From the NCBI GenBank assembly GCA_021791195.1, contig JAJYXB010000007.1, forward strand, positions 1-64,000: a stretch of DNA of 64,000 nt, in the 5' to 3' direction. The stretch's first letter is position 1. Every line of letters starts with the position of its first letter. This document shows positions 25,724 to 28,490 of the stretch, one piece after another. The stretch is from Actinomycetes bacterium (GTDB taxonomy: Bacteria; Actinomycetota; Thermoleophilia; BMS3ABIN01). Under the pieces are notes generated by a model that was not told where the DNA came from, made no database searches, and was given only the letters and a program-made list of their open reading frames with translations. The position numbers were made by a program, and so were the translations under genes.

Positions 25724-26074
25724 ATGTCAATTTCGAAGCTGACAATCATTGGCGTGGCCGCGGTGGCGTTATTGCTCCTGGGAGCGGCGGTGGTCTTCGC
25801 CCAGGGCAATACCGGCACTTACGGTCCCGGGATGATGCGCGGTTTCGGGGCTCCAGGCACCACCGGCACGGCCCAGACGGCTCCCAACACCCCGCCCAGC
25901 GGCGGCTACGGCCCGGGCATGATGGGTAATGGCAACGGTTACGGCGGCACGTACGGCCCGGGCATGATGGGTAATAATGTTGACTGGAACAAGATGCGCA
26001 ACGCCATGAACAGCGGTAACTGGAACGAGATGTACCAGGTCTGCAGCGACGCTTTCAATCGGCAGAACCGGTAG
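25724..26074 (+). CDS. Small secreted Met/Gly-rich repeat protein
   Basis: The 116 residues begin with a signal peptide (cleavage expected after VVFA). The mature part has three copies of YGPGMM (YGPGMMRG and twice YGPGMMGN) spaced by Gly/Asn/Thr-rich linkers, and it ends in a short helix with one cysteine (YQVCSDAFNRQ). Paired methionines in flexible repeats are a known way to bind soft metals such as Cu(I) or Ag(I), as in SilE-like proteins, but no homology is claimed. AGGAGG precedes the ATG. It follows a two-component system and its putative operator, so it is a likely target of that system. Confidence 0.75.
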   Translation: MSISKLTIIGVAAVALLLLGAAVVFAQGNTGTYGPGMMRGFGAPGTTGTAQTAPNTPPSGGYGPGMMGNGNGYGGTYGPGMMGNNVDWNKMRNAMNSGNWNEMYQVCSDAFNRQNR

Positions 26075-26203: not shown

Positions 26204-26229
26204 GGGGCGGCCCTGGTGGGGGCCGCCCC
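26204..26229 (-). terminator. Intrinsic terminator after the peptide gene
   Basis: On the minus strand GGGGCGGCC and GGCCGCCCC form a strong stem followed by TTTTAAA. It ends the unit that contains the 42-codon peptide gene and probably the rhodanese gene before it. Confidence 0.75.
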
Positions 26230-26271: not shown

Positions 26272-26400
26272 TTACGGGGCCGACGGAACCGTCACGCTGC
26301 ACTGCCAATTGGCGCACCCGAAGGTGATTTCCTTCAAGTTGTCATGCTTCACCAGCTCAGGCTTGGCGTAAGGCTCCCGCTTTTTCTGCTTACTTTTCAT
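26272..26400 (-). CDS. Putative RiPP precursor with lasso-type leader (42 aa)
   Basis: This short gene has a perfect AGGAGG seven bases before its ATG and is followed by an intrinsic terminator. The product starts MKSKQKKRE. It continues YAKPELVKHDNLKEITFG, which matches the YxxPxL...T leader of lasso-family peptides recognised by PqqD-like (RRE) proteins. Thr at position -2 implies cleavage before Gly, giving the core GCANWQCSVTVPSAP. A classical lasso ring needs Asp or Glu at core position 7-9; here position 7 is Cys and none is acidic, with a second Cys at position 2. The core therefore cannot form the usual macrolactam. No cyclase, protease or RRE gene is visible nearby. It lies 53 bases after the secreted rhodanese gene on the same strand. 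Confidence 0.7.
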   Translation of the reverse strand: MKSKQKKREPYAKPELVKHDNLKEITFGCANWQCSVTVPSAP

Positions 26401-26453
26401 CGCGGTTCCTCCTGTTAATTCGATGTTGATTGCCTTTGTCATTATTTTCTCAG

Positions 26454-27983
26454 CTAGGGCAATGTATAGGAGGTGCCACAGATATCAGTCGCGCTGCCTG
26501 CCATGATAGTATGCCAACCGCCTACGCCAGCCGGCACGTTGTACTTCACCGTCGCGGTAGCTGAGCCGCCCGGCGACATGATGTTCGCCACTGTGAGCGG
26601 CAGCGCTGACGCCACCGTAACGCCATTGGTATTTATGCTGCCGGTTATGTTGATGTCATAGCCAATGCCGCTGCCGCTGTTGCTGATAGTCCAATCCACT
26701 GAAAGCAAGCCAGCGTTATAATCGGAAACCGTCCCCCAATACGGACTGGGAGCGCTCAGGTTCAGGCTCGGCTTGCTGCTCGGGCACTGACCTGAATACG
26801 TAAGTCCCCCGGGGGCAGAGCCGGTGACTACCGGATAGTTATGCTCCTCGGTGTTCGCGTTGAACTCCATCCCGTAGCCGTTGTTCCATGCCGCAAGCCC
26901 GTACCTGAGACCCTTGTCGGGGGCGCCGGCGTTGCGAATTCCCAGCGCGTTCAGACCAATTACGGCAGCGTTGGATTCCTGCTGGCCGTTGGCGTAGACA
27001 ATCACGGGCTTGCTGGTGTCGATTGACAGCAGGTTGGTATAATCGCCGGCGCCATCCTTGGCAAACAACTGCTGATACGGGATATTTACTGCGCCGGTAA
27101 TGTGACCGGCGGCGTATTCGGCAGCGCTGCGGACATCGACGACCGTGTAGTTGCCGATGTTGCTGTCATTGACCTGGCCGGTGCCTGTGCCCGGGAAGAT
27201 GAACGGCGGGCTGGTCGCAGACTCAGACAGGTTGTCGGCCACTCTGGTGATCTCCGCCGGCTCAGTCGAAGTGGTGTTATTGATTACCGGATACGCACCC
27301 GGGGCCGGCAGCGGATGCGGCGTCGTTTCCATGCCATACGTATGCACATAGATGTCCTTGGTGCCGGGCGTCACTTCCGCCAGCACGCTGGGCTCGGCCG
27401 CCGAGTTCCATCCCAGATTGCCCCACTTGAGCGCTGTGATGACTGGAGCGGGAGTACCGAAGTACCCGGCCTGAGCCACCGCCCCCAAGGCCATCTCGGC
27501 CAGTTTGTCGGTGTGACCGCTGTAGCAGGCAAGCACGATCGTCTTGTTTTGGTGCTTGGCCAGCTCGCTCCTGATATATTCGAGATTGGCCGGCTTGACA
27601 ATATCCTGGTATTTGTAGGTAGTCACAGGAATCGCCCCGGGGATGTGACCTGCGCCCATGCCGGCGGTATTTGTCCCGGTATAAGCGTCAGCAGCTCTCA
27701 CATCGATGACCAGCGGATCATTGGTGGGATCATCACCCGGGCCGATCGTGCCGTCATTGTTGTCGTCAAGCAATGCCATCAGCGTTGTCGTGTCCATGTA
27801 ATTTGTGCCTGGGACATTGACGGCGGGAGCGCTGTTTAAAAAAGCGTTGCTGTTGTCGGCAATTATGCCGAACTGAGCGTCGCCTGGCGGCGGCGCCGCC
27901 GAACTGGTGGCGACCAGGCATAGCGTGGTCGCCAGGCTAAATGCAAACATGACAAGGCAGATCAGCCTTAGTTGTTTGCCCAT
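26454..27983 (-). CDS. Secreted tandem rhodanese-domain protein
   Basis: This 509-residue exported protein has a signal peptide to about residue 29. The first rhodanese domain (DVRAADAY, GHIPGAIPV) has the active loop CYSGHT and catalytic Cys153. It contains an inserted calcium-loop-like stretch, DDNNDGTIGPGDD. The second domain (DVRSAAEYAAGHITGAVNIP) has VYANGQQES, with Ala at the catalytic position, so it is inactive. A C-terminal beta-sandwich follows (LSAPSPYWGTVSDYN, then SATDICGTSYTLP). The first domain may transfer sulfane sulfur outside the cell. The start is set at 27983 because the signal peptide begins there; the open frame runs 54 codons further without a signal. The region is less GC-rich than the core genes. 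Confidence 0.8.
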   Translation of the reverse strand: MGKQLRLICLVMFAFSLATTLCLVATSSAAPPPGDAQFGIIADNSNAFLNSAPAVNVPGTNYMDTTTLMALLDDNNDGTIGPGDDPTNDPLVIDVRAADAYTGTNTAGMGAGHIPGAIPVTTYKYQDIVKPANLEYIRSELAKHQNKTIVLACYSGHTDKLAEMALGAVAQAGYFGTPAPVITALKWGNLGWNSAAEPSVLAEVTPGTKDIYVHTYGMETTPHPLPAPGAYPVINNTTSTEPAEITRVADNLSESATSPPFIFPGTGTGQVNDSNIGNYTVVDVRSAAEYAAGHITGAVNIPYQQLFAKDGAGDYTNLLSIDTSKPVIVYANGQQESNAAVIGLNALGIRNAGAPDKGLRYGLAAWNNGYGMEFNANTEEHNYPVVTGSAPGGLTYSGQCPSSKPSLNLSAPSPYWGTVSDYNAGLLSVDWTISNSGSGIGYDINITGSINTNGVTVASALPLTVANIMSPGGSATATVKYNVPAGVGGWHTIMAGSATDICGTSYTLP

Positions 27984-28238
27984 ATTCCCCACACCCTTTC
28001 TAGTTGAAGTCCAGTAATTCCAACTTCCAAAAGTTCCTGCTATTAAATAAATACCTCCTTTCCGTCGCGACAAAATAAAGATTTTAATTTTTACTAAAAA
28101 ACAACAGTAAAAAATAAGGAAATTTAGTATATAACTTTCTTTCAAGTTGTCAACGAAGTGAAATATTGCTTTTTCTAATAGCTAACTGGATAAGTCAACT
28201 AATGTTTTGGCGGTTAACAGCTCATTGAGGCATGAAAG

Positions 28239-28490
28239 ATGAAATTGATGCGGTTGATAAAAGAGGAAAAATTACCGGGAGTACTGCGACGAGAGCTGGC
28301 CTGGCAACTTGGCATCTCGACTGTTACCGCCTGGACGATGAGGCGCAAGATCGCGCATGCCATGAGAAGGAGGGAAGGGGAGCCGATGCTTGTGGGTTTG
28401 GTGGAGGATGATGAATCCTGCGTGGGTGGGCCCGTAGCGGCGTCTTTGGCCGCGGCAACCAGTGGCAGGTTATTGCATGGCGGAACCTGA
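28239..28490 (+). pseudogene. IS1595-family transposase fragment
   Basis: The 83 residues match the middle of ISXO2/IS1595 transposases: LPGVLRRELAWQLGISTVTAWTMRRKI, then LVGLVEDDESCVGG around the first catalytic acid. The N-terminal zinc ribbon and the rest of the catalytic domain are missing (family length about 250-330). It is a dead footprint in an AT-rich stretch between the rhodanese gene and the polysaccharide locus. From 28491 to 28606 I see only a stem GCCTCTC-AG-GAGAGGC and no gene. Confidence 0.7.

Follow-up and report, generated by a model that had tools for sequence, protein, structure and literature searches.

The peptide family described here has its closest known counterparts in lasso peptides of the paeninodin type and in the linear polyphosphorylated peptides (LPP). 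Lasso-type leader machinery has so far been tied to knotted peptides from compact clusters. For lasso leaders, a spacing of Tyr-17, Pro-14, Leu-12 and Thr-2 has been stated, and the residues H, GxSGSGKS and DD have been described for lasso kinases (PMC10368454). According to the work on LPP, a lasso-like RRE and an HprK kinase without a cyclase can give linear products (PMC13381572).

The present family shares with the paeninodin- and Bsf-type phosphorylated lasso peptides, which have discrete B1 and B2 proteins, the YxxPxL...Thr(-2) leader of the same spacing, a discrete RRE, a B2 protease, an HprK-like kinase with an intact motif and, in the wider locus of some genomes, an uncharacterised nucleotidyltransferase (PF14907). 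It differs from them in having neither a macrolactam cyclase nor an Asp or Glu at core positions 7-9, in usually carrying Glu at core position 1, and in having its precursors in 4-12 copies far from the enzymes. The resemblance to LPP comprises the YxxP leader, the discrete RRE, the HprK-like kinase, an NTP transferase, the location in a capsular polysaccharide locus, the absence of a cyclase and a product predicted to be linear. However, LPP has an SpI-like signal peptidase, an MsbA-like transporter and in-cluster precursors with variable C-termini, and is found in Bacillota only, whereas the family presented here has a B2 protease beside the RRE, scattered precursors and a near-invariant core.

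The precursor gene and its relatives

The features of the locus are collected in Table 1; the window is the whole stretch of DNA that was analysed, 64,000 nucleotides long.

Table 1. Features of the precursor gene and the adjoining partner gene in the window
Feature	Coordinates	Strand	Remarks
Candidate terminator	26204..26229	(-)	10-bp G+C-rich hairpin, then TTTT; downstream of the precursor gene; read from sequence
Precursor gene	26272..26400	(-)	42 aa, then stop; MKSKQKKREPYAKPELVKHDNLKEITFGCANWQCSVTVPSAP; backed by the homologue family and dN/dS
Predicted core	26275..26319	(-)	GCANWQCSVTVPSAP; from alignment; Trp5, Cys7 and Ser8 kept even in the most diverged copies
Leader, residues 1-27	26320..26400	(-)	MKSKQKKREPYAKPELVKHDNLKEITF; Thr at -2; from sequence and lasso-type spacing; cleavage site inferred, not shown
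YxxPxL motif (YAKPEL)	26353..26370	(-)	Expected RRE-binding motif; no binding data
Shine-Dalgarno AGGAGG	26408..26413	(-)	7 nt 5' of the ATG
Upstream gene, secreted protein	26454..27983	(-)	Rhodanese domains and family-specific C-terminal domain; start 27983 picked by signal-like N-terminus
C-terminal Ig-like partner domain	26457..26780	(-)	~108 aa; AlphaFold2 pLDDT 96
Promoter-like site TTGACA-16-TATACT	28126..28153	(-)	5' of the rhodanese gene; 11/12 matches; consensus match only

An alternative in-frame ATG at 26442 would give a possible product of 56 amino acids. The rhodanese and peptide genes lie on the same strand with a gap of 53 nt, or of 11 nt if the ATG at 26442 is used. Since the promoter-like site sits 5' of the rhodanese gene, the two probably form one operon, in which the peptide gene is likely to be the distal gene. 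The preliminary description had reported a perfect ribosome-binding site, which held, and a terminator belonging to the gene, which held in part: the hairpin and the TTTT are present, and the output of the terminator scanner did not include the hairpin at 26204-26229. The peptide gene converges with a gene (25724-26074, + strand) that adjoins a two-component system and whose secreted, Gly/Met-rich product repeats GGYGPGMMG-like motifs; no family match above cut-off was found for this protein. Just upstream of the rhodanese operon lies an ORF fragment (28239-28490, + strand) that was recognised, by eye only, as IS1595-type transposase-like.

In a search of 99 genomes, peptide matches were found in 19/19 genomes of the host's own family, which consists of uncultured Thermoleophilia-type Actinobacteria, at 4-12 per genome; the best homologue had an E value of 3.5e-24 (own copy excluded), and matches outside the family had E values of 0.2 or worse. 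The genes are scattered through each family genome and encode near-identical cores. When 397 genomes of the phylum were searched with a profile, the core was likewise confined to the host's family, and five genomes of another family matched in the leader only. A separate named collection yielded 68 peptide loci; the MAGs concerned bear the labels Thermoleophilia, Actinomycetes, Actinobacteria or Gaiellales, and the other sources are Bacterium BMS3Abin01 and one labelled only uncultured bacterium. All core-bearing genomes belong to one family and many are MAGs; the counts lack phylogenetic independence. The existence of homologues with the YxxPxL leader had been named beforehand as a test of the preliminary description, and they were found.

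In 112 codon-aligned copies, Pro-14, Thr-2, Cys2, Cys7, Ser8, Val11 and Pro12 are invariant while synonymous codons vary, and the median dN/dS of 0.16 (0.24 among closer pairs) indicates purifying selection. A Shine-Dalgarno match of at least four bases precedes 103 of 108 copies. The peptide gene is therefore real: homologues in every family genome, purifying selection and Shine-Dalgarno matches together rule out a chance ORF. A phage or plasmid origin was also rejected, as no relative was found in the viral contigs or plasmids searched. The peptide gave an Ogr_Delta zinc-finger Pfam match below cut-off (E 0.006), which we judged to be a coincidence of Cys spacing. No description of the peptide family was found in the literature searched, the scope of which excluded subscription papers and preprints.

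Diverged precursors with the same leader and other tails were also observed (L026:7750-7932, - strand; L186:6231-6425, - strand; L038:7500-7667; L045:7207-7467), the first two in the window's own genome. Among their tails are acidic and His-rich ones, e.g. ...WNCSSSGDNDDHDCDHGDD. Trp5, Cys7 and Ser8 are kept in L026, L038 and L045, the rest of the core being changed. Short precursors with the same leader type occur in another family of the phylum (L167, L168 and L169, from genomes G417, G143 and G205); they stand in tandem in L167 and L169. Their cores are short, begin with Gly1 and differ from that of the family, and some of them have Glu within positions 7-9. These leader-only relatives were not accepted as members of the core family.

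Numbering the core from the residue after Thr-x, we found in the alignment columns exactly the leader spacing stated for lasso peptides, with Pro of the YxxPxL motif in 112/112 copies, Tyr in 109/112 and Leu in 108/112. The peptide also matches two lasso models, NF033521 and NF033528, weakly. The core follows the pattern (E/G)CxxW(Q/S)CSVxVPxxP. Its positions 7, 8 and 9 are Cys, Ser and Val or Ile, with Asp or Glu there in none of the 112 aligned copies, which excludes a lasso ring because no acceptor is available. Core position 1 is Glu in 109 of 115 copies; Gly is found only in the window copy and one other, and is atypical. Thus, the lasso-type leader with Thr at -2, the Cys at core 2 and 7 and the missing Asp or Glu at 7-9, all claimed from sequence alone, held, and Gly1 is true of the window copy without being a family trait.

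The enzyme block

One convincing PqqD-type RRE is encoded in the genome, on contig C17 (PF05402, E 4.5e-19). By comparison with the PDB it is related to the lasso protein TbiB1 (E 2.9e-9), and it scores below the NF033536 cut-off (59.8 of 80). A second PqqD match on the same contig (C17:65867, E 0.39) was judged spurious, its ORF resembling ferredoxin-NADP reductase. The gene order is HprK-like kinase, RRE, B2 protease and DUF2079 membrane protein. The B2 protein exceeds the cut-off of NF033537, the NCBIfam lasso B2 model, and the complete copies retain its Cys and His; the kinase residues H, GxSGSGKS and DD are intact in all copies covering them. The RRE protein on which the preliminary description depended was hence found, is of the lasso type and adjoins a B2 protease. 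An RRE match is present in 18/19 family genomes and B2 over cut-off in 16/19, with one more weak match and two genomes without any; the three genomes short of the cut-off include the two least complete assemblies. Among 41 other genomes of the class, only three have B2 over cut-off.

The block is syntenic across the family, contains no cyclase, belongs to a polysaccharide locus and is distant from the precursors; in the loci fetched it generally adjoins the same housekeeping genes, which we identify from their sequence as hemW, hrcA and dnaJ. No precursor-like or leader-bearing ORF was found beside it in the 16 loci fetched. A local precursor was thus rejected for these loci, and apart from the scattered peptides no candidate was found for the leader-binding site of the block. 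Because the RRE and B2 genes lie far from the precursors, processing is probably carried out in trans, which remains an inference. No exporter was identified beside the block. One locus with the kinase, RRE and B2 genes also encodes a secreted glycoside-hydrolase-like protein that carries the partner domain described below (L027:17098-18930, - strand).

No lasso cyclase over the curated cut-off was found in the genome. Two full-length Asn-synthase proteins are encoded in a distant, radical-SAM-rich locus on contig C24; both pass TIGR01536 and are asparagine synthases by its curated cut-off, and they reach 247-256 bits against a lasso cyclase cut-off of 525. Ten peptide matches were obtained in genome G002, and the cyclase-like query matched nothing there. 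With neither a ring acceptor nor a cyclase, a lasso peptide proper is ruled out, and the earlier statement that a standard lasso knot is impossible holds for all 112 aligned copies: of the lasso criteria, that of the leader is met, and those of the ring acceptor and the cyclase are not. The genome has no match to the MNIO enzyme family PF05114 either, which rules out an MNIO-modified product of the bufferin or methanobactin type.

Secreted partner proteins

Upstream sequence was sufficient for 103 distinct peptide genes, and in 71 of these the gene directly upstream, on the same strand, encodes a partner protein. The partner protein ends in a domain of ~108 residues with the consensus YWxSxxDYxAxxLSVD...TNGVT...LxYxVPxGVxxF. 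This domain occurs in 11-39 copies per family genome on varied secreted proteins, most of its genes having no peptide gene; 41 other genomes of the class yielded a single weak match. The counts of peptides and partner domains per genome correlate (r 0.78). A probability calculated for the adjacency of the two leaves the relatedness of the genomes out of account and serves as illustration only. AlphaFold2 confidently predicts an Ig-like beta-sandwich with distant fold matches (best Foldseek E 5e-3). No Pfam family above cut-off was found for the window copy, and 8 of 29 members match CARDB weakly. The domain thus resembles CARDB and adaptin-ear-like Ig-like domains in its predicted beta-sandwich and in weak similarity to CARDB, whereas its sequence family, bar the one weak match, occurs only in this bacterial family.

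A signal-like or transmembrane start is present in 61/67 partner genes, and those without one mostly run off the contig. The other domains of the partners include rhodanese (15/62), multihaem c-type cytochromes, ethylbenzene-dehydrogenase-like, NosD-like and beta-helix domains and Ig repeats. The family shows operon-like coupling to secreted proteins, and ~30% of the peptide copies have no partner gene upstream. Such partner-less copies occupy recurrent places, most often before hemC-hemA-like genes; we take these from their sequence to be hemC-hemA, and genes beside some other copies to be trx genes. A stand-alone copy just before the hemC-hemA-like genes, on the opposite strand, was seen across genera (L025, L049, L088, L096, L098, L103, L117, L118, L122 and L124), mostly behind the same two upstream genes.

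Proposed explanation and its rivals

From these results, a hypothesis may be put forward, to which we assign a probability of roughly 0.62: the peptides constitute a new RiPP family restricted to one lineage; they would be trimmed in trans, stay linear or be closed by a disulfide, possibly carry phosphate, and work with surface proteins. The YxxPxL leader of the scattered precursors would be bound by the single lasso-type RRE of the genome, and the adjacent B2 transglutaminase-like cysteine protease would cut after Thr-Phe to release a core of 14-20 residues. The HprK-like kinase beside the RRE would probably phosphorylate the core, Ser8 being the best candidate. As there is neither a lasso cyclase nor a ring acceptor, the product is predicted to be linear or closed by a Cys2-Cys7 disulfide. 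Most precursors lie directly behind genes for secreted Ig-domain proteins; hence, the product would most likely act outside the cell with these partners, as a subunit, a ligand or an anchoring aid. The trimming, phosphorylation, chemistry, export and function are all inferred, without expression, binding or mass data, and the least secure of these is the function at the cell surface. The suggestion of an unnamed RiPP class made in the preliminary description is supported; what that description could not see is that the gene has many scattered relatives and that this family is coupled to secreted proteins.

Several observations speak against this hypothesis. The enzyme block, located in a polysaccharide locus, could serve an unseen substrate, and Glu at core position 1 is unusual for a B2 substrate. 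The partner-less copies, the many partner-domain genes without a peptide gene and the lack of an exporter beside the block are likewise unfavourable. A bolder version, which we regard as no more than possible, is that a central RRE, protease and kinase mature many peptides with near-identical cores, each co-encoded with a different surface protein, and that the peptide binds, decorates or anchors its cognate Ig-like domain.

Among the rival explanations, we consider it unlikely that the peptide is a secreted signal or toxin that uses the same RRE and B2 without any physical link to the partners, the operon reflecting co-regulation only. Small Cys-bearing peptides cleaved from a leader are often signals or bacteriocins, and the stand-alone copies agree with this explanation. 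However, a single recurring domain lies in front of many copies per genome, and the core hardly varies across copies and genera, unlike that of conflict peptides; a conflict peptide is disfavoured by this near-invariance. It is similarly doubtful that the core binds a metal, haem or sulfur ligand via Cys2 and Cys7 and aids extracellular redox proteins. The rhodanese, cytochrome c, ethylbenzene-dehydrogenase-like and NosD-like partners, as well as the copies beside hemC-hemA and trx genes, favour a ligand carrier, whereas no redox role is evident for the other partners, which are beta-helices, Ig repeats and proteins without a known domain.

A peptide with a radical-SAM thioether or Trp crosslink (sactipeptide, ranthipeptide or cyclophane type) that draws on the same RRE and B2 also appears improbable. 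In its favour, Trp5, Cys7 and Ser8 are invariant or nearly so, and a radical SAM enzyme with a Cys-rich C-terminus, the nearest in the fetched locus, is encoded ~7 kb from the RRE, with the same neighbourhood in 5 other genomes. On the other hand, this enzyme has glycosyltransferase-like genes around it, falls far short of all peptide-maturase cut-offs and is one of 38 radical SAM matches in the genome. The disulfide or thioether modification suggested earlier remains inferred. Finally, a short co-translated protein or regulatory ORF with a coincidental leader-like motif is very unlikely: direct processing data are lacking, but the exact lasso spacing of four residues recurs in >100 copies, together with the RRE and B2.

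Returning to the proposed RiPP family, the RRE and protease form a conserved, syntenic block of this bacterial family that apparently serves scattered precursors unable to form a lasso. Such systems would escape cluster-based genome mining, their precursor genes being distant from the enzymes and smaller than the usual gene-size limits. The coupling to secreted redox and surface proteins indicates a physiological role rather than one in warfare.
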